A stretch of DNA of 64,000 nt, from the NCBI GenBank assembly GCA_023151185.1, contig JAKLJL010000001.1:124001-188000 (forward strand). The letters run 5' to 3'. The notes below the pieces were generated by a model that saw nothing but the letters and a program-made list of their open reading frames with translations, was not told the DNA's origin and did not search any database. The DNA is from Bacteroidota bacterium (GTDB lineage Bacteria > Bacteroidota > JABWAT01). Every line of letters begins with the position of its first letter. Position 1 is the stretch's first letter. Positions 53,642 to 64,000 of the stretch are shown here, piece by piece. Made by a program: the position numbers and the translations under genes.

Positions 53642-56512
53642 ATGACGCTTACTCCGTTCCACGCTAAGTATTTTGCCTGGGAACTTACCAAACGAAGTTC
53701 TTCAGATACCATTCAGAAATTAGCATCAACTTTGGTTGATGCACAGGTTGATTTAAACCCGCATCAGGTTGAGGCTGCGCTTTTTGCTTTCAGATCGCCT
53801 CTTTCAATGGGTGCAATTCTGGCTGATGAAGTTGGTTTGGGAAAAACGATTGAAGCCGGATTGGTTATTTCCCAAAAATGGGCAGAACGGAAAAGAAAAA
53901 TCCTGATCATTACTCCTGCCAATCTCAGAAAACAGTGGTCTCAGGAACTCCAGGACAAATTTTTTCTGCCCTCGGCAATTCTTGAAGCCAAATCCTTCAA
54001 TGAAAAAATAAAAAGTGGAAATCTGAATCCGTTCGATCAGTCAGAAATAATCCTGTGTTCCTACCAGTTTGCAAGAAGTAAAGACGCTTACTTAAAATCC
54101 ATCCGCTGGGATCTGGTTGTTATTGATGAAGCTCACCGGTTAAGGAATGTCTACAAACCGGGAAATAAAATAGCACGTTCAATAAAAGAGTCGCTGGAAA
54201 AAGTACCGAAAATCTTACTGACGGCAACACCCCTTCAAAACAGTCTTCTGGAACTATATGGTCTGGTCAGTATCATTGATGATTATGTATTTGGTGATCT
54301 GAAAAGTTTCAAAGTTCAGTTCAGCCGGGTGAATGACGCAGATGATGAATTTCTGTTCAATGAACTGAAAGAACGGTTAAAGCCGGTTTGTAAGCGAACA
54401 CTCCGCCGGCAGGTTCTTGAATACATCCGTTATACCAACCGGATTGCCCTAGTGGAAGAGTTTTACCCAACCGCTGATGAGCAGAAACTCTATGACCAGG
54501 TTTCAGACTATCTCCAGAGTGAAAAACTGTTTGCTCTGCCACCGGGTCAAAGAAGCCTGATGACTTTGATTTTAAGACGGCTACTGGCCTCTTCCACGTT
54601 TGCTATTTCGGGTACCCTGTCCGGTTTAAGTGAACGTCTCCAGGCTATGCTCAATCAGCATGAAGGGCAAGACCTTGGCGCTGACCTCAAAGAAGATTTT
54701 GAGACCTGGGATGAGCTGAATGAGGAATGGGATGAAGAGGACGATGAACAAGTTAAGGAACTCAGCGAATCTGACATTTTAAATATCAAATCAGAAATGG
54801 CTGCACTCCGTGAATTTGCTGCTCTGGCCAAATCCATTACCCGAAATTCTAAAGGGGAAAAGCTTTTTACAGCAATTGAAAATGGTTTTTCTGAGTTAAA
54901 ACGATTAGGTGCTCCCCAAAAGGCAATCATTTTTACCGAAAGTAAACGGACTCAGGAATACCTGCGTACGATTCTTGAATCAAAAGGATATCAGGGTAAA
55001 GTTGTTCTTTTCAATGGAACTAATACCGATCTGAAATCAAGGGAAATTTTTAAAGACTGGACGGAAAAGCATAAAAACACGGACAGAATCAGCGGATCTA
55101 AATCAGCCGATATGCGCGCAGCTCTGGTTGATTATTTCAGGGATGAAGCCACGGTTATGATTGCAACCGAAGCCGCCGCAGAAGGTATCAACCTGCAATT
55201 CTGTTCACTTGTTATCAACTATGACCTTCCATGGAATCCACAACGGATTGAACAGCGCATTGGCCGGTGTCACCGGTATGGTCAGAAGTTCGATGTTGTT
55301 GTGGTTAATTTTCTGAACAAGGCAAATGCAGCAGACCTGCGTGTCTATGAGTTGCTCAAAGATAAGTTTAAATTATTTGATGGTGTTTTTGGTGCCAGTG
55401 ATGAAGTTCTGGGCAGTATTGAAAGCGGAATTGATTTCGAAAAAAGAATTGCTGCTATTTATCAGGATTGCAGAACTCCCCAGCAAATTGATTTTGCCTT
55501 TAATGAACTGCAGACGGAACTGGAAGGAAGTATTACAAAAGAACTTCAGAAAACCCGTCAGCAATTGCTTGAGAATTTTGACGAGGAAGTTCATGAAAAA
55601 TTGCGGATTAATCTTGCGGAAAGCAAAGAGTATCTGACCCGGTATGAAAACTGGTTGTGGGCTGTAACCCGTTTTTTCCTGAAAGATTATGCCCACTTTT
55701 CAGAAAAAGTGTATTCTTTTACCTTGCATTCCAACCCCTTTCCGGGCAAACCTATTCATTCAGGACCCTACCGGATTGGAAAAGGGGTCGAGGATGTTAA
55801 TATTTACCGGATGAATCATCCGTTGGCACAGGAAGTCATTCATCGGTGCCGTGAGATTCAGCCAGAACCGGCGACCCTTGTTTTTGACTACTCAGGCGTA
55901 CAGAAAAAGATTTCCATTCTTGAACCTCTTGTTGGAAAAACGGGTTGGATGCTCGCCCGAAGTCTGACCGTTTCAACTTTTGAACAGGAAGATTTTGTGC
56001 TACTAACCGGCGTAACCCGTGAAGGTACTGAACTTGATCAGGGTCAGTGTTCAAGATTGTTTTCACTGAATGCCACATCGTCCCCACTTGAGACCCAGCT
56101 ATCGCCTGAAGAATTACAGATTCTCACTGTTGCATTCGAAAAAAGACAAGCTGAAATCCTGGGTATCGTTGGTGAGAGGAATATGCAGTTTTTCAATATC
56201 GAACTCGAAAAATTGGATAAATGGGGAGAAGACCGGCGGAATTCCCTGAAAGTTGCTCTTAAGGATTTGGATGAGCAAATCAGGGAAATTAAGAAAAGAG
56301 CACGGGTTGCCCCGAATCTTCCCGATAAACTGGCACTTGAAAAAGAGCGCAAAAAACTGGAAAACGAGAGAGATGAAGCCTGGCGTGATTATGACGGCGC
56401 TGCCAAAGAAATTGAGCGGCAAAAGGATGGCCTGATTGATAATATTGAGGCCAGGCTAAAGCAGGATTTGAAGAGTGAAGATTTATTTTTGGTGAATTGG
56501 CAGGTGAAATAA
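53642..56512 (+). CDS. SNF2-family (RapA/DrmD-like) helicase
   Basis: GAILADEVGLGKTIEAGLVISQ, DEAHRLRN, LTATPLQNSLLELYGL, ATEAAAEGINLQFC, IEQRIGRCHRYGQ. Confidence 0.93.
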   Translation: MTLTPFHAKYFAWELTKRSSSDTIQKLASTLVDAQVDLNPHQVEAALFAFRSPLSMGAILADEVGLGKTIEAGLVISQKWAERKRKILIITPANLRKQWSQELQDKFFLPSAILEAKSFNEKIKSGNLNPFDQSEIILCSYQFARSKDAYLKSIRWDLVVIDEAHRLRNVYKPGNKIARSIKESLEKVPKILLTATPLQNSLLELYGLVSIIDDYVFGDLKSFKVQFSRVNDADDEFLFNELKERLKPVCKRTLRRQVLEYIRYTNRIALVEEFYPTADEQKLYDQVSDYLQSEKLFALPPGQRSLMTLILRRLLASSTFAISGTLSGLSERLQAMLNQHEGQDLGADLKEDFETWDELNEEWDEEDDEQVKELSESDILNIKSEMAALREFAALAKSITRNSKGEKLFTAIENGFSELKRLGAPQKAIIFTESKRTQEYLRTILESKGYQGKVVLFNGTNTDLKSREIFKDWTEKHKNTDRISGSKSADMRAALVDYFRDEATVMIATEAAAEGINLQFCSLVINYDLPWNPQRIEQRIGRCHRYGQKFDVVVVNFLNKANAADLRVYELLKDKFKLFDGVFGASDEVLGSIESGIDFEKRIAAIYQDCRTPQQIDFAFNELQTELEGSITKELQKTRQQLLENFDEEVHEKLRINLAESKEYLTRYENWLWAVTRFFLKDYAHFSEKVYSFTLHSNPFPGKPIHSGPYRIGKGVEDVNIYRMNHPLAQEVIHRCREIQPEPATLVFDYSGVQKKISILEPLVGKTGWMLARSLTVSTFEQEDFVLLTGVTREGTELDQGQCSRLFSLNATSSPLETQLSPEELQILTVAFEKRQAEILGIVGERNMQFFNIELEKLDKWGEDRRNSLKVALKDLDEQIREIKKRARVAPNLPDKLALEKERKKLENERDEAWRDYDGAAKEIERQKDGLIDNIEARLKQDLKSEDLFLVNWQVK

Positions 56513-57258
56513 TGAGGGAAGTCATTAATATTTATTGCGATGAAAGTTGTCATCTTGAAAATGACAACCAATCTGTAATGGTTCTTGGAGCTGTTTACTG
56601 CCTTGCTTCCAAAAAAGATGAGATATTCGCAAGGCTTTCAGAAATGAAAGCTAAACATCGGCTTTACCCAAAGCACAAAAAAGACTCCAGGCAAAACAGA
56701 ACAATTTATGAAACAAAATGGAATAAAGTATCAGAGAACAAACTTGGTTTTTATCTTGAATTATTAGACTTTTTTTTTGATGACGATGACTTAAGTTTCC
56801 GTGTTTTAGTTGTCCCAAACAAAAAATCGCTTGACCATGAGGCATTTGGTCACAATCACGATACTTTTTATTATAAAATGTACTTCAGTATGTTAAAAAC
56901 AATTCTGAATCCAGATTTTGCACATAATGTTTTTATTGACATTAAGGATACCCGAAGTAAAGAAAAAGTTCACAAGCTGGAACAGGTTCTCAGAAACGAT
57001 AAGTATGATTTTTCGAAGGAAATTATTAAAAAAGTTCAGCAGGTCAAATCACATGAGGTAGAACTGGTTCAACTTGCTGATTTTTTGACGGGAGCAATGT
57101 CCTATGTTCACAGGGGGTTATCTGGCAGTAAAGCAAAAAATGAATTGATAGAATACATCCGCCACCGTTCAAGATACTCTCTGATGAAGTCAACCCTTAT
57201 AAAGGAAAAGAAGTTCAATATATTTATCTGGTCACCAACAAAAGTTGGTGGATTCTGA
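56512..57258 (+). CDS. DUF3800 domain-containing protein
   Basis: REVINIYCDESCHLENDN...MVLGAVYC...VQQVKSHEVELVQLADFLTGAMSY; ATG overlaps helicase stop by 1 bp. Confidence 0.88.
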   Translation: MREVINIYCDESCHLENDNQSVMVLGAVYCLASKKDEIFARLSEMKAKHRLYPKHKKDSRQNRTIYETKWNKVSENKLGFYLELLDFFFDDDDLSFRVLVVPNKKSLDHEAFGHNHDTFYYKMYFSMLKTILNPDFAHNVFIDIKDTRSKEKVHKLEQVLRNDKYDFSKEIIKKVQQVKSHEVELVQLADFLTGAMSYVHRGLSGSKAKNELIEYIRHRSRYSLMKSTLIKEKKFNIFIWSPTKVGGF

Positions 57259-57755
57259 TGTCTACCCAGAATTTATTGGTTTTTCCTGATCTGATCTTTT
57301 TAACTGATTACAATGGAAATATTCAAGAATATTTCAATGCAGTGTATCAAATCTTTGAAAGCCATTTTATAAAATCGAACCCTCATTTCAAAGGGATAAG
57401 AGTTAATACTCAAAAATTTCCGTTGGAGGACGGCATTCATCGAACCTTTTATCATATTACCCATGAAGGAAACGATGAAAAAAACAGGCTACCAGATTTG
57501 CGTAGGATGGAAAGAATCAGATACCCGCGATTTATAATTGAGTCTTTTAACCATCCGGATTTTCTGGTTTGGAAAAATAAACGCAAAAATGAAACCCGGG
57601 TTCTGATTTTTAACCAGAAGGAAAATTATCTTGTTGTGCTTGGGGAGCGCAAAGGGTATAACCTTTTGGTAACAGCTTACTTAGTGGATCATGAACATAC
57701 CCAAAAAAAGCTGTTGGCTGAATACAAAACCTCTATAAAAGCCGAAACCGCTTAG
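57258..57755 (+). CDS. Small conserved protein, possibly BECR-fold nuclease-like
   Basis: LPDLRRMERIRYPRFIIES..VWKNKRKNETRVLIFNQKENYLVVLGERKGYNLLVTAYLV; overlaps DUF3800 stop by 1 bp. Confidence 0.6.
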   Translation: MSTQNLLVFPDLIFLTDYNGNIQEYFNAVYQIFESHFIKSNPHFKGIRVNTQKFPLEDGIHRTFYHITHEGNDEKNRLPDLRRMERIRYPRFIIESFNHPDFLVWKNKRKNETRVLIFNQKENYLVVLGERKGYNLLVTAYLVDHEHTQKKLLAEYKTSIKAETA

Positions 57756-57917: not shown

Positions 57918-59801
57918 ATGTCAACCATTGAAAAACAAGAACTTACGTCTTTGCCTGTCACCGAGCTGCAACTTTCTAAGCTCAGGGAAATTTTCCCTGA
58001 AATTTTTACGGAAGGAAACCAAATCGACTGGGAAAAACTGAAACTGACCCTGGGTGAAAGTATTGATGCCGGCAAGGAACGGTATGGCATGACCTGGCCT
58101 GGAAAAGCAGAATGTTTTAAAACCATTCAGCAACCCAGTATTGCCACCCTGGTACCGGCACCAGAAGAAAGCATCAACTTTGAGACCTCAGGCAACCTGT
58201 TTATCGAAGGCGACAATCTGGAAGTTCTGAAATTACTTCAGAAAAGTTACCTTGGTAAAGTGAAAATGATTTACATTGACCCGCCTTATAATACCGGAAA
58301 TGATTTTATCTACCCTGACAATTACAGTGAAAGTCTGGATACCTACCTTGAATACACCGGGCAGGTGGATAATGAAGGACGGAAGTTTTCGACCAACACT
58401 GATACTGACGGCCGGTTCCACAGTAAATGGATGAACATGATGTACCCCCGTCTCTTTCTGGCAAAGAATTTATTAAAGGAAGACGGGGTGATTTTTATTT
58501 CAATTGATGATAAAGAAGTTAATAATTTACGATTTTTATGTAATGAGATTTTTGGTGAAGAAAATTTCCTGGTTTCTATTACAAGAAGAACTAAAAGTGG
58601 CGGTGGTAGTGCATCTCACCATTTTGCAATAGAAAATGATTTTATTATTTCATATTCAAAAAACAAATTATCACTTGAAAAAATATTTGTACCCCACGAG
58701 TCTGAATACGCTAAAAGGTATTCCCTTGAAGATGAAGAAGGAAGTTATTTTTGGGATACAATGGAAAGATCTTATACTGCGACCAAACCATATAAAATTG
58801 AAGCACCCGATGGTACTTTGCTTGAAGGGAAATGGTTCCGAAGTGAAGAACGATTTAAGTTAGATAAAATAAAAGGCGAAACCCGAATTATAAAAAAGAC
58901 AGATGGTAATTGGTCGGTTCAATTTAAACAGAGAATGCCAGAAGGAAAAAAAATTCGTTCAATCTTTAATGAAAAAGAATTTAAATCAAGTCAGGATGAT
59001 TTGATAAGTATTGAAATGGAAAGTGTTTTTCCGTTCCCAAAGCCAATTTATTTAATTAAATATTTATCAGTTGGGTTGGTATTAAATAATGACATTATTC
59101 TTGATTTTTTCTCGGGTTCCTCGACGACGGCTCATTCAATTTTAGATTTAAATCATGAGGATGGGGGCAATCGGAAATTCATCTGTGTTCAGCTTCCGGA
59201 GCCTACCAATGAGACCAGTGAAGCCTTTAAAGCTGGGTATACTACTATTGCAGAAATTGGAAAAGAGAGAATACGCCGGGTAATAAAGAAAATTGAGAAG
59301 GAAACAGCAGAAGAAAAAAAGAAAAAGGTAAATCCAACATTGTTTCCTGTTCAGGATCAGGGCGTTACGAGCCAACAGGAACCCGACCTGGGTTTTAAAG
59401 TTTTCAAGCTTGCGTCCTCCAATTTTAAAATCTGGGATGCCGGTATTCCAAAACATCCCGAAGCGATTCAGGAAGCCTTGTTTGGCCATATTAATCACAT
59501 CACACCTGAAGCCGAACAGGAAGCCATTCTGTATGAGTTACTGTTGAAATCCGGCTTTGAATTGACCACCTCGGTCAAACGGCTTACCTTCGGTGAACAA
59601 ACAGTTTTCAGTATTGCTGAAGGTCAGCTACTTATCTGTCTTGAAAAGAAACTGACCCACGATCTTATCAGGGAAATGGCAGAACTCAGACCAGTACGTG
59701 TCATCTGCCTTGATGAAGGATTTCAAAATAATGATCAGCTTAAAACCAATGCAGTTCAGATCATGAAAAGCAAAGGTGTTGTGAATTTCAGAACGGTGTA
59801 A
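57918..59801 (+). CDS. mod: Type III restriction-modification DNA methyltransferase (Mod)
   Basis: MIYIDPPYNTGNDF (DPPY), LFIEGDNLEVLKLLQ, IILDFFSGSSTTAHSIL (FxGxG-like). Confidence 0.95.
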   Translation: MSTIEKQELTSLPVTELQLSKLREIFPEIFTEGNQIDWEKLKLTLGESIDAGKERYGMTWPGKAECFKTIQQPSIATLVPAPEESINFETSGNLFIEGDNLEVLKLLQKSYLGKVKMIYIDPPYNTGNDFIYPDNYSESLDTYLEYTGQVDNEGRKFSTNTDTDGRFHSKWMNMMYPRLFLAKNLLKEDGVIFISIDDKEVNNLRFLCNEIFGEENFLVSITRRTKSGGGSASHHFAIENDFIISYSKNKLSLEKIFVPHESEYAKRYSLEDEEGSYFWDTMERSYTATKPYKIEAPDGTLLEGKWFRSEERFKLDKIKGETRIIKKTDGNWSVQFKQRMPEGKKIRSIFNEKEFKSSQDDLISIEMESVFPFPKPIYLIKYLSVGLVLNNDIILDFFSGSSTTAHSILDLNHEDGGNRKFICVQLPEPTNETSEAFKAGYTTIAEIGKERIRRVIKKIEKETAEEKKKKVNPTLFPVQDQGVTSQQEPDLGFKVFKLASSNFKIWDAGIPKHPEAIQEALFGHINHITPEAEQEAILYELLLKSGFELTTSVKRLTFGEQTVFSIAEGQLLICLEKKLTHDLIREMAELRPVRVICLDEGFQNNDQLKTNAVQIMKSKGVVNFRTV

Positions 59802-59816
59802 CGGGGTAAAGCCAAT

Positions 59817-60905
59817 ATGGCAATTCAATCTGTAAAAATTTATAACTTCAAATCCATTAAGAAAAGTGATGAAATCAAACTGCAGGCACTGAATATTCTG
59901 ATCGGGCCAAATGGAGCAGGAAAAAGTAATTTCATCAGTTTTTTTAAATTCCTCAATAAACTTTTTGAACAGCAGCTTCAGTTGTATATCAGCCAGAACG
60001 GAAGGGCAGACAATTTTCTTTACTTCGGCAGAAAAACATCTGAAATGTTGTTCGGTCAGATTACGTTTGATACTGAATATAATAATCGGTATGGCTTTAA
60101 ACTTGTGCCCGACCAGGCTGGAAATCTCATCTTTGCAGAAGAATGGAGTAGTATTTTTAGCGGGTTTACTAATTTTTGGGATAACAAAAAGATTAACAAT
60201 CCTGGGGCAATTGAAAGTGTTTTACCGAACTCAGATGGGTTTCGGGATAAGTATTTAAAAGACAGTTTCAGTTCTATGAAAATTTATCATTTTCATGATA
60301 CCGGTTTTAATTCTAAAATAAAACAACCTTGTACAACCAACGATTATTCCAGACTTTACGAAGATGGCCGGAATTTAGCAGCTTTCCTTTATAAACTGCA
60401 AAAAGCCCACCCATTACATTTTAACCTGATTGAAAAAATTATCAGGTCAATCGCTCCATTTTTCAACAAGTTTCATTTAGAACCTGACGAAATAGACGCG
60501 AGCCAAATTTATTTGCGTTGGTTTGAGAAGGGTTCAGACCAAGTTTTTAATGCACATAATTTTTCTGATGGCACACTCAGAATGATCTGTCTTACCACCC
60601 TAATGATGCAGCCAGAATTGCCAAAAACGATCATTATTGATGAACCTGAATTGGGTTTGCATCCTGTTGCAATTGAAAAACTGGCTTCGATGATAAAAAC
60701 AGCTTCTACCAAATCCCAGATTATTGTATCAACTCAATCTGTAACCCTTCTCAACCATTTCAATCCTGAAGATGTTTTAGTTGTTGAACGTGAAAACAAT
60801 CAAACTGTCATTAAGCGATTGTCTTCAGAAAATCTTCAAAATTGGCTTTCAGAATATACCCTTGGTGAACTTTGGAATAAAAATGTCTTTGGAGGCCGGC
60901 CGTGA
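59817..60905 (+). CDS. AAA family ATPase (AAA_21/OLD-like)
   Basis: NILIGPNGAGKSNFISFF, FSDGTLRMICLTTLM, TIIIDEPELGLHPVAIEKL, QIIVSTQS. Confidence 0.92.
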   Translation: MAIQSVKIYNFKSIKKSDEIKLQALNILIGPNGAGKSNFISFFKFLNKLFEQQLQLYISQNGRADNFLYFGRKTSEMLFGQITFDTEYNNRYGFKLVPDQAGNLIFAEEWSSIFSGFTNFWDNKKINNPGAIESVLPNSDGFRDKYLKDSFSSMKIYHFHDTGFNSKIKQPCTTNDYSRLYEDGRNLAAFLYKLQKAHPLHFNLIEKIIRSIAPFFNKFHLEPDEIDASQIYLRWFEKGSDQVFNAHNFSDGTLRMICLTTLMMQPELPKTIIIDEPELGLHPVAIEKLASMIKTASTKSQIIVSTQSVTLLNHFNPEDVLVVERENNQTVIKRLSSENLQNWLSEYTLGELWNKNVFGGRP

Positions 60906-61561
60906 TCAGGGGTATTTATATTCTGGTAGAGGGTCAAACCGAAGAAGAGTTTGTCAAAAGTTTGCTTTTGCCGTTTTTCCATGCCCACGAATTTTACGAT
61001 GTCAGAGCCATATTAATGAGTACCAGCCCGGGACATAAGGGAGGTGCAGTAACTTATTCAAGGTTCAAAAAAAATGCAGAAACGCTGTTATCGAGTCAAC
61101 AGGACATCATCGTAACCTCATTGATTGATTTTTTCAGACTTGAAAGTGATTTTCCAAAATATTCAGAGGGGAAAAAACTCAATAGTGTCGGTGAAAGGGT
61201 TGCATTTTACGAACAGGCCTGTGCAGTGGATATAAATCATCCGCGCTTTATTCCAAATATTCAACTCCATGAGTTTGAGGGTTTATTATTTACGTCAACC
61301 AAAGGGTTTGACCTTTTCCCGGATTTGTCCGATCAGTCCAAAGAGAAAATCGGTAATATCATTAGGGATTACCCAAATCCGGAATTAATAAATGACGGGT
61401 CATTAACGGCACCATCCAAACGTCTTGAAAAAATAATACCCGGTTACCAGAAACCCTTTCATGGTCCACTAATTGCATTGGAAAATAGTTTTGAACTTAT
61501 TATTGAGAAATGTCCAAGATTTAAAGCCTGGGTTGAACTTTTACTGTTAAGAGTCAAATAA
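60902..61561 (+). CDS. DUF4276 (TOPRIM-like) protein
   Basis: GIYILVEGQTEEEFVKSLL, DIIVTSLIDFFRLESDFP, HEFEGLLF; 4-bp overlap with AAA gene. Confidence 0.88.
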   Translation: MIRGIYILVEGQTEEEFVKSLLLPFFHAHEFYDVRAILMSTSPGHKGGAVTYSRFKKNAETLLSSQQDIIVTSLIDFFRLESDFPKYSEGKKLNSVGERVAFYEQACAVDINHPRFIPNIQLHEFEGLLFTSTKGFDLFPDLSDQSKEKIGNIIRDYPNPELINDGSLTAPSKRLEKIIPGYQKPFHGPLIALENSFELIIEKCPRFKAWVELLLLRVK

Positions 61562-61588
61562 TTACTGTTTAATAAAACCACTATTTAA

Positions 61589-64000
61589 ATGAAACTTAAA
61601 TTCGACAGTACCCAACCCTATCAACTCCAGGCTATTTCTGCGCTTGTTGATCTCTTTGATGGTCAGCCTCTGAACCAGGGTGATTTTGCAATTGAAATCA
61701 ATTCACAGGAAGCAGATGGGCAGGGGAGTATTTTCCAGTCAGAATTGGGTATTGCCAACCATTTAGTACCAGATCAGGATGCCATTTACAGGAATCTTGT
61801 ATCGATCCAGGAAAGAAATGATCTGGATCCGGTTCGTCAGGAAGATTTTGTTGCCAACGGCATGAACTTTTCGGTTGAAATGGAAACCGGAACCGGAAAA
61901 ACATACGTCTACCTGAGAACTATTTTTGAACTTTCCAGTAAATATGGTTTTAAAAAACATATTATTGTCGTACCGAGTGTAGCAATCAGGGAGGGTACCC
62001 TCAAAAATCTGGAAATTACGTCAGAACACTTCAGAGCCCTCTACAATAATCTTGAATTTGAATACTTTGTTTATGACAGCAGGAAGGTAAACCGTCTCAG
62101 GCAGTTTGCAACCAGTAATCAGCTGCAAATCATGGTGATTAATATTGACGCCTTCCGCAAAGATTTCTCAGACATCAATGAAGACAAAAAAAGTAACGTT
62201 ATTTTTAAGGAAAATGACAAATTATCCGGCCGTAAACCCATTGAGTTTATTCAGGCTACCCAGCCCTTTGTTTTTATTGATGAGCCACAGAGTGTAGATT
62301 CTACACCTAAAGCCCAGGAAGCCATTAAATCTTTAAACCCGCTTTGTATTTTCCGGTTTTCTGCAACCCACCGCAATGTTTATAATCTGGTTTATAAACT
62401 TGATCCGGTTCAGTCGTACAAGCTTCATTTGGTAAAGCAAATTGTCGTTGCATCTGTTACCGGTGTCAACGCCCAGAATGATGCCTATGTAAAACTGCTT
62501 GAGGTTGATAACAAAAAGGGAATCCGGGCAAAAATCAGAGTTCAGGTACAGGCTGGAAGCCTCGTGAAGGAAAAAGATATCTGGGTAACCCAGAATACGG
62601 ATCTTTTTTCTCTTTCGAATGAACGGACTGCCTATCAGAATGGATTTGAAGTTTTGGATATAAGTGCAGAACCCGGCAATGAATTCGTAGATTTTACCCT
62701 TGGCCGTCTTTACAAAGGCCAGGAACGGGGTGGCATTCAGGATGATGTTACAGATGTACAGATACGCAATACCATCAAGAAACATCTTGACAAAGAACTG
62801 CAGCTTAAAGGTCAGGGAATCAAAGTTCTGAGTTTGTTTTTCGTTGATAAGGTTTCAAATTACCGGGCCTATGATACAGAAGGAAAACCACAAAAAGGAA
62901 AATTTGCCCTTTTGTTTGAAAAATTCTATGGGGAACTCATTGCATTGCCCCAATACCGTGAACTGGCGGTTCATCCGGTAGAGATGCTTCATGACGGTTA
63001 CTTTTCACAGGATAAAAAGGGCGTCTATAAAGATACAAACGGGTCAACACAGGCAGATGATGATACTTATGCCAAAATCATGCGAAACAAGGAACAATTA
63101 TTGTCGTTTGAAGAACCGTTGAAATTTATTTTTTCACATTCTGCCTTGAGAGAGGGCTGGGACAGCCCAAATGTTTTCCAGATTTGCACACTTAATGAAA
63201 CCCGTTCAGCCATGAAGAAGCGCCAGGAAATCGGGCGTGGACTCCGGCTTCCCGTAAATCAGACCGGAGAACGTGTTTTTGATGATACTATTAATAAGTT
63301 GACCATCATTGCAAATGAGAGCTATGAAGAATTTGCTGCAAAGCTGCAGACCGAATACGAAGAAGATTGCGGCGTAACCTTTGGAAAGGTTCCCCGGCTT
63401 GCTTTTAAAGGGATTAGCTACTGGAAGGAAGAAACGGAATCCGCCTACACTAAAGATCATTCCGTTCAAATCTGGTCGGAATTGGTGGGAAATGGATTTC
63501 TGGATGAAAAAGGGAAAATTCTTCCTTCCTTTCAGCCTTCAGAACCGGGTTTTACTTTGAAATTATCAGAGGCATTTTCTGTTTCAGAGCCAGATATTGT
63601 GTCTGTTTTACAGACCTACCTGATGGAACGTCATATCAGGAGGGAAGAAGAGCCTAAGCATCTGAAAATTAACAAACAGATTTTCCTGGATCCTGAGTTT
63701 GAAAACCTGTGGTCAAAAATCAGATACCGGACTACCTATCAGGTGGAGTACGAAACCGGTAAATTGGTTGATAATTGTATTGATGCCATTAAAAAAATGG
63801 AAAAGATTGAGCCGGTTTCAATCCGTTACCGGGAAGCACAACTGGGTGTAGATAAAAAAGGTGTTAGTGCTTTTGAAACAAAATCCAATTTGTATCAGGT
63901 CACCTATGTTGGAAAATTGCCGGATGTGATCGCCTATCTCCAAAAACAAACCGAACTGACCCGCAATACATTGGTTCAGATTCTGGTCAAAAGTAACAGG
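61589..64000 (+). CDS. res: Type III restriction enzyme Res subunit (partial, runs off the window)
   Basis: MKLKFDSTQPYQLQAISALVDLFDGQ, VEMETGTGKTYVYLRTI, FIDEPQSVD, FSATHRNVYNLVYKL, REGWDSPNVFQICTL, RQEIGRGLRLPVN; absent from ORF track because it has no stop in window. Confidence 0.92.
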   Translation, partial: MKLKFDSTQPYQLQAISALVDLFDGQPLNQGDFAIEINSQEADGQGSIFQSELGIANHLVPDQDAIYRNLVSIQERNDLDPVRQEDFVANGMNFSVEMETGTGKTYVYLRTIFELSSKYGFKKHIIVVPSVAIREGTLKNLEITSEHFRALYNNLEFEYFVYDSRKVNRLRQFATSNQLQIMVINIDAFRKDFSDINEDKKSNVIFKENDKLSGRKPIEFIQATQPFVFIDEPQSVDSTPKAQEAIKSLNPLCIFRFSATHRNVYNLVYKLDPVQSYKLHLVKQIVVASVTGVNAQNDAYVKLLEVDNKKGIRAKIRVQVQAGSLVKEKDIWVTQNTDLFSLSNERTAYQNGFEVLDISAEPGNEFVDFTLGRLYKGQERGGIQDDVTDVQIRNTIKKHLDKELQLKGQGIKVLSLFFVDKVSNYRAYDTEGKPQKGKFALLFEKFYGELIALPQYRELAVHPVEMLHDGYFSQDKKGVYKDTNGSTQADDDTYAKIMRNKEQLLSFEEPLKFIFSHSALREGWDSPNVFQICTLNETRSAMKKRQEIGRGLRLPVNQTGERVFDDTINKLTIIANESYEEFAAKLQTEYEEDCGVTFGKVPRLAFKGISYWKEETESAYTKDHSVQIWSELVGNGFLDEKGKILPSFQPSEPGFTLKLSEAFSVSEPDIVSVLQTYLMERHIRREEEPKHLKINKQIFLDPEFENLWSKIRYRTTYQVEYETGKLVDNCIDAIKKMEKIEPVSIRYREAQLGVDKKGVSAFETKSNLYQVTYVGKLPDVIAYLQKQTELTRNTLVQILVKSNR

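Follow-up and report, generated by a model that had tools for sequence, protein, structure and literature searches.

A two-gene cassette lies between mod and res of the type III restriction-modification (R-M) operon in the window, i.e., the whole stretch of 64,000 nucleotides that was analysed. Judged by its profile matches, the cassette is HEC-01, a catalogued candidate defence that constitutes a family of its own, and the mod-res junction that holds it is a cargo slot with diverse, swapped defence genes. We consider it likely that HEC-01 is an OLD-type ATPase that probably controls a Toprim nuclease, and that the pair is a cassette for backup defence, interchangeable with others in this slot.

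The HEC-01 genes and their products

According to the ORF calls, mod, the gene of an OLD-type ABC ATPase, a DUF4276 gene and res form a tight single operon in the window, with 15 bp between mod and the ATPase gene, 27 bp between the DUF4276 gene and res, and a 4-bp overlap (GTGA) of the DUF4276 start codon with the ATPase stop codon. The first-pass annotation had described the two middle genes as a translationally coupled pair nested between mod and res, and the positions of both ORFs, the coupling and the gene identities (Pfam AAA_21, DUF4276, N6_N4_Mtase and ResIII) are all borne out. The features of the locus are:

57918..59801, plus strand: mod, type III DNA methyltransferase, 627 aa, left border of the slot (Pfam N6_N4_Mtase, 109.7 bits)
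59802..61588, no strand: mod-res cargo slot, 1787 bp, with HEC-01 inside; compared with 42 other mod-to-res pairs
59817..60905, plus strand: HEC-01A, OLD/SMC-type ABC ATPase, 362 aa, ATG start, predicted sensor/regulator (Pfam AAA_21, PADLOC HEC-01A)
59904..59930, plus strand: Walker A motif GPNGAGKSN, residues 30-38 in the translation; G30, N32, G35 and K36 invariant in 44 homologues
60639..60665, plus strand: Walker B/D-loop DEPELGLHP, residues 275-283; E276, P277, E278, L281, H282 and P283 invariant in 44 homologues
60902..61561, plus strand: HEC-01B, DUF4276 protein, 219 aa, GTG start, predicted Toprim nuclease effector (Pfam DUF4276, PADLOC HEC-01B)
60926..60943, plus strand: VEGQTE Toprim motif with E10 and E14, the counterparts by spacing of BpOLD E400 and E404
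61589..64000, plus strand: res, type III restriction subunit, right border of the slot (Pfam ResIII; PADLOC REase_III PDLC03647, 853 bits)

Type III Mod and Res are both present in the operon by their PADLOC profiles (MTase_III and REase_III), Mod matching PDLC03634 over its full length with 633 bits. The res ORF encodes 974 aa in full and extends beyond the end of the window (locus L107). The assembly that carries the window comprises 3.74 Mb in 27 contigs and holds a single DUF4276 gene.

Both members of the pair match the PADLOC-DB HEC-01A and HEC-01B models at full length and from adjacent genes. For the ATPase, the HEC-01A model (PDLC04175) gives 466 bits over residues 2-362 and profile positions 5-362 of 363, and Pfam AAA_21 gives 107 bits (cut-off 27); for the second protein, HEC-01B (PDLC04188) gives 241 bits and Pfam DUF4276 (PF14103) 165.7 bits (cut-off 30.2). 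Since PADLOC-DB already lists the pair, it is not unclassified. HEC stands for Hma-embedded candidate, a designation from the "guilt-by-embedding" preprint of Payne et al. (10.1101/2024.01.29.577857), and to judge from papers that cite it the window pair shares the catalogue's concept of defences embedded in other defence operons; set against the catalogue entry, the host operon is here a type III R-M system. The literature searched, outside which the defining preprint fell, held no experiment on HEC-01 and named it only in passing, and for this reason the defence activity is one that we infer.

The ATPase has the Walker B sequence IIIDEPELGLHP, and its structure model (pLDDT 95) has SMC/Rad50 heads and PtuA as nearest folds. 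The invariant Walker A and B motifs together with these fold matches identify an ABC/OLD/SMC ATPase head, so by its model the protein is of the ABC/OLD type rather than an AAA+ protein. The top NCBIfam match, MAD3, reaches 125 bits where 420 is the cut-off.

For the DUF4276 protein, an AlphaFold model built from 51 homologues reached a pLDDT of 94.2. In a fold search with this model, only class 2 OLD nucleases gave specific PDB matches, through their C-terminal Toprim regions: 6njv (prob 1.00, E 3.3e-4) and 6nk8 (prob 1.00, E 4.3e-3, TM 0.52/0.56). The Foldseek resemblance to OLD Toprim domains is moderate (TM about 0.4-0.55). PDB searches with the sequence, single or as a profile, gave no meaningful match, and the viral structure library gave only a weak RloB-like match to the model (E 0.11). 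Based on this confident model, the DUF4276 protein is predicted to have a Toprim fold that is nearest to the C-terminal nuclease of OLD/Gabija, in agreement with the Toprim-like effector proposed in the first-pass annotation. The closest named homologues are from Segatella, Prevotella and Saprospiraceae, and the phylum sampled for comparison is hence presumably Bacteroidota; no relatives were found in the phage genomes searched, and the literature searched contained no mention of DUF4276.

The homologue alignment shows conservation of E10, E14, D76, E124/E126 and K184, a set of two-metal-type residues of which E10 is conserved in at least 90% of the 51 homologues. The active site of BpOLD consists of E400 and E404, D455 and D457, T506 and E508, and K562 (PMC6755086). 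When the residues of the two proteins are matched by spacing, without superposition, the E-x3-E element agrees, the distance from D to K is 108 in the DUF4276 protein and 107 in BpOLD, and that from D76 to E126 is 50 as against 53. The second aspartate of the DxD element is replaced by F78 (D76-F-F78), and by Tyr in most relatives. With the residues mapped onto BpOLD by spacing, catalysis by the DUF4276 protein is a likely prediction.

Comparison with OLD, Gabija, PARIS and related systems

As for the OLD proteins of classes 1 and 2 (P2 Old, BpOLD and GajA of Gabija), the window pair combines an ABC ATPase with a Toprim domain, and the ATPase plus Toprim effector logic put forward initially agrees with the OLD/SMC-like ATPase and the OLD-like Toprim fold. 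The C-terminal region of BpOLD/XccOLD is nearest in fold to DUF4276, and its E/E/D/E/K spacing resembles that of the class 2 active site. Unlike the OLD nucleases, the pair consists of two separate proteins, the DxD is reduced to DxF/Y, and the genes are embedded in an R-M operon. Unlike Gabija, where the two activities are fused in GajA, the ORFs are separate, and there is no GajB UvrD helicase gene between mod and res. AbiL and MAD3 of MADS are listed, along with RloB-like Toprim proteins, as ABC ATPase-Toprim partnerships (PMC12409363), and resemble the pair in this respect; their scores on the ATPase are far below that of HEC-01A, with 98 bits for the PADLOC AbiLi model and 125 bits for MAD3.

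The original suggestion was a PARIS-like module with DUF4276 in place of DUF4435. PARIS and the window pair both have a split ATPase and Toprim effector and are both tied to anti-restriction biology, and one AriA model, which has an AAA_21 profile, matched the ATPase with 115 bits (a second gave 60). The HEC-01A model is nevertheless ahead by 350 bits, the second protein matches no AriB or DUF4435 model, AriB is absent from the fold matches shown, which lead to OLD C-terminal domains, and the ATPase has 362 aa as against 464 for the AriA chains in the PDB. Membership in PARIS was rejected on these grounds, and it is highly improbable that the pair is PARIS proper, i.e., AriA/AriB with DUF4276 as a stand-in; both proteins fall in families other than those of AriA and AriB.

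The mod-res junction as a cargo slot

Res and mod were searched in 395 sampled genomes of the window's phylum, and pairs on the same contig were listed by hand. In 33 of the 43 mod-then-res pairs, 0.6-5 kb lies between the two genes, and in the other 10 there is nothing between them; all seven res-then-mod pairs have gaps of 81-138 bp and none holds cargo. The proportions of 33/43 and 0/7 are descriptive counts, because related genomes are included and the loci are not independent. Known or candidate defence families account for most of the cargo, and in a few slots the genes have no clear role (Y1 transposase-like, ParA). The cargo includes:

YhcG/DUF1016 PD-DExK nucleases (PDC-S02), alone or with a Schlafen AlbA_2 protein
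Fic-containing PDC-M59; SoFic; GmrSD (HEC-06); HEC-01
PD-Lambda-4_A with AbiD
an NsnB-like ATPase with a 215-aa partner of no known family
PHP-ATPase (Ppl) with Schlafen; Schlafen with ParA
DUF488 PDC-M19; BRO PDC-S13; PDC-M64
proteins of 634, 232 and 204 aa with no family assigned

Three slot proteins, from genomes G184, G297 and G038, have no match in either Pfam or PADLOC and are candidate effectors:

L113:568-2472, minus strand: 634-aa protein (G184)
L123:472-1170, minus strand: 232-aa protein (G297)
L133:1912-2559, plus strand: 215-aa partner of the NsnB-like ATPase (G038)

The nearest relative of the window in a tree of res pieces is G373, with 61% identity in res and 55% in mod, and its cargo is PD-Lambda-4_A with AbiD.

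When closely related systems are compared in pairs, the differences are confined to the slot and to a central part of mod that is presumably its target-recognition region. Between G047 (SoFic) and G303 (PDC-M59), res is 95.8% and mod 80.7% identical and the cargo is different; between G259 and G038, res is 87.0% identical and the cargo is entirely different. In all pairs checked, DNA homology restarts precisely with the opening base of the res start codon (4086/3889, 4032/3857, 6207/4462, 10284/3386 and 10590/7453), and the G259/G038 alignment ends at the last base of mod (2374/2502). The mod stop codon and the res start codon are the exact borders of the swapped cargo.

Traces of earlier cargo are also found. 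In both SoFic slots (L130 and L134), a 149-aa remnant of PDC-M59A precedes SoFic, from which it follows that SoFic replaced the rest of a PDC-M59 module in place. Four slots with two modules (G373, G284, G140 and G200, the latter three related to each other) carry a decayed copy of the 5' end of res between the modules. These copies consist of the first 68-75 bases of res, are 85-90% identical to the genuine res start, and in two of the four cases include upstream sequence as well. The scars lie between the stacked cargo modules:

L126:4467-4534
L121:2325-2452
L114 and L128 (reverse strand)

Each scar looks as if a second incoming fragment, made up of a cassette and res, had left the beginning of the older res behind, and such scars could reveal the mechanism of exchange. 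In the window's own slot, a search for a res 5' scar found none. On the res tree, 17 cargo changes are counted for 16 classes at 33 loci, compared with a mean of 21.0 and a minimum of 18 after shuffling; related genomes make this test weak, and it says only that cargo turnover is fast and partly follows lineage.

Embedded defences have been described in other methylation-based operons. BREX operons contain backup effectors that include OLD-ABC/TOPRIM dyads, GmrSD, PD-DExK and Schlafen proteins (PMC12839542), DarTG2 lies between hsdS and hsdR at a potential recombination hotspot (PMC12255303), and TgvAB lies within a type I operon (PMC11411939). Both the phenomenon and the kinds of effector are akin to the mod-res cargo; different from the BREX and type I cases (DarTG2, TgvAB) are the type III host, the codon-exact exchange borders and the res 5' scars. 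The type III mod-res slot, its borders and its scars are undescribed in the open literature searched, which did not cover the preprint that defines HEC. The embedding of defences is hence already published, and the detail of the type III slot may be new. The slot offers a discovery rule, namely to inspect genes between mod and res, and near-identical type III systems with different cargo are natural experiments on how far an effector depends on its host restriction enzyme.

Recurrence of HEC-01 and its possible role

A DUF4276 match is present in 80 of the 395 sampled genomes of the window's phylum. Of about 58 related loci, nearly all have the DUF4276 gene directly 3' of the ATPase gene and on the same strand, so the pairing is more than chance. 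The exceptions are L079 (9700-13254), where a 527-aa ORF lies between the two HEC-01 genes, and L010, with a partial DUF4276 frame.

Besides the window, the complete mod-HEC-01-res arrangement occurs in two other members of its phylum (G296, locus L081, and G105, L088) and in one Verrucomicrobium (L005). Neither of two outcomes that the first-pass annotation had named as refuting it, a DUF4276 protein lacking the Toprim fold and a pair that does not recur with mod-res, was thus obtained. The pair in G105 belongs to a divergent HEC-01 subfamily (HEC-01A 521 bits, HEC-01B 216 bits), and the Verrucomicrobium locus has a different type III subfamily (MTase_III PDLC03646, REase_III PDLC03654). In G212 (L059), mod-HEC-01 runs to the contig end, and in G284 (L057) a truncated mod precedes HEC-01.

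Other hosts of the pair are not of type III. In the BREX locus L066, HEC-01 follows PglX (1490 bits) and precedes a PglZ-sized gene coupled by 4 bp; in L058 it is flanked by pglX and pglZ, Pfam confirms PglZ and BrxL, and the gene sizes in L067 and L068 match the arrangement of L066/L058. HEC-01 is immediately 5' of hsdR-type genes in two type I contexts (L011 and L078), follows hsdM-hsdS in a further member of the genus to which the window belongs (L074), and is near a type ISP gene in L062. On an Aeromonas plasmid (L174) it lies between a SNF2 helicase and mod, on an Ideonella plasmid (L175) between a methyltransferase and an Mrr-type gene, and in L004, L053, L061 and L069 it is alone among housekeeping genes. 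Because of these varied contexts, HEC-01 is regarded as a mobile module that favours methylation-based operons and is not specific to type III. As a separate observation, the BREX loci L058, L067 and L068 have several modules upstream of pglZ, where HEC-01 adjoins either GmrSD or another AAA_21 ATPase with a 207-aa protein.

The initial annotation also raised the possibility that the pair guards the R-M system. As a dedicated guard, the ATPase would sense the inhibition or disassembly of Mod-Res, or a phage anti-restriction protein, and unleash the Toprim nuclease. The translationally coupled position between mod and res and the recurrence beside restriction genes of several R-M classes and BREX are consistent with this, and there are published precedents in PrrC, which is embedded in ecoprrI, and in PARIS, which senses Ocr (PMC12707154); OLD-ABC/TOPRIM dyads in BREX have in addition been proposed as a backup against anti-restriction (PMC12839542). 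The precedents keep a guard function in consideration. However, HEC-01 also occurs with unrelated R-M types or alone, mod-res systems that closely resemble each other hold unrelated cargo or are empty, with the same slot in sister systems filled by many unrelated modules, and no contact of HEC-01 with Mod or Res was seen in any analysis run. Exchangeable cargo is favoured because HEC-01 contexts and slot contents are both promiscuous, and a specific guard of the type III system, which is not supported over cargo, is rather doubtful.

The pair could instead act as a toxin-antitoxin that stabilises the locus, or be trapped by recombination as a hitchhiker, in either case with no role in phage defence. 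Exact-boundary exchange and the res 5' scars indicate that recombination alone can move cassettes, and the slots with Y1 transposase-like or ParA genes would fit such a process; against this, slot contents are mostly of defence families, and both HEC-01 genes and the active-site residues are conserved across several phyla. We find this explanation unlikely.

The backup-cassette reading of HEC-01 is built on the gene identities, the strict pairing, the modelled Toprim/OLD-like fold and the conserved residues of the nuclease, together with the recurrence within R-M and BREX operons and the slot replacement from mod stop to res start. In PARIS, AriA keeps AriB inactive and frees it upon detecting a phage protein (PMC12409363), and by analogy the HEC-01 ATPase would hold the Toprim nuclease inactive and release it on a phage cue. 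The released nuclease would cut DNA or RNA and stop the infection, probably by an abortive route. Co-transcription with mod and res would couple the expression and spread of HEC-01 to the restriction system, and HEC-01 would back up restriction as a second line of defence, probably a suicidal one. The OLD/Gabija/PARIS group would gain a widespread and apparently untested branch, provided that HEC-01 is indeed an active Toprim nuclease under ATPase control. It is quite unlikely that the slot effectors (HEC-01, YhcG, Fic, AbiD, GmrSD and others) all respond to a single trigger, namely the failure or inhibition of Mod-Res; if they do, the restriction system would act as the shared sensor of a dozen plug-in suicide modules, and the junction a dedicated, recombination-fed docking slot.

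Further genes are associated with mod in the window and elsewhere. A DrmD-like SNF2 helicase (53642-56512; about 703 bits to DISARM DrmD_b, cut-off 950) lies upstream of the R-M genes, and relatives of it are found 5' of mod in G047, G303, G070 and a Rhizobium plasmid (L173). Because close relatives precede mod elsewhere, the helicase may regularly belong to such type III systems. Between the helicase and mod in the window lie genes for a DUF3800 protein and a 165-aa partner (PADLOC PDC-M04A/B; 56497-57755), and this interval, which on the Aeromonas plasmid (L174) is occupied by HEC-01, is possibly a second cargo slot. In L189, L191, L192, L196, L197 and L176, mod is preceded by the genes of a divergent helicase (about 1,090 aa) and then of a protein of 220-250 aa; the smaller protein is DUF4391 in E. 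faecium, and the four-gene arrangement recurs with type III loci.
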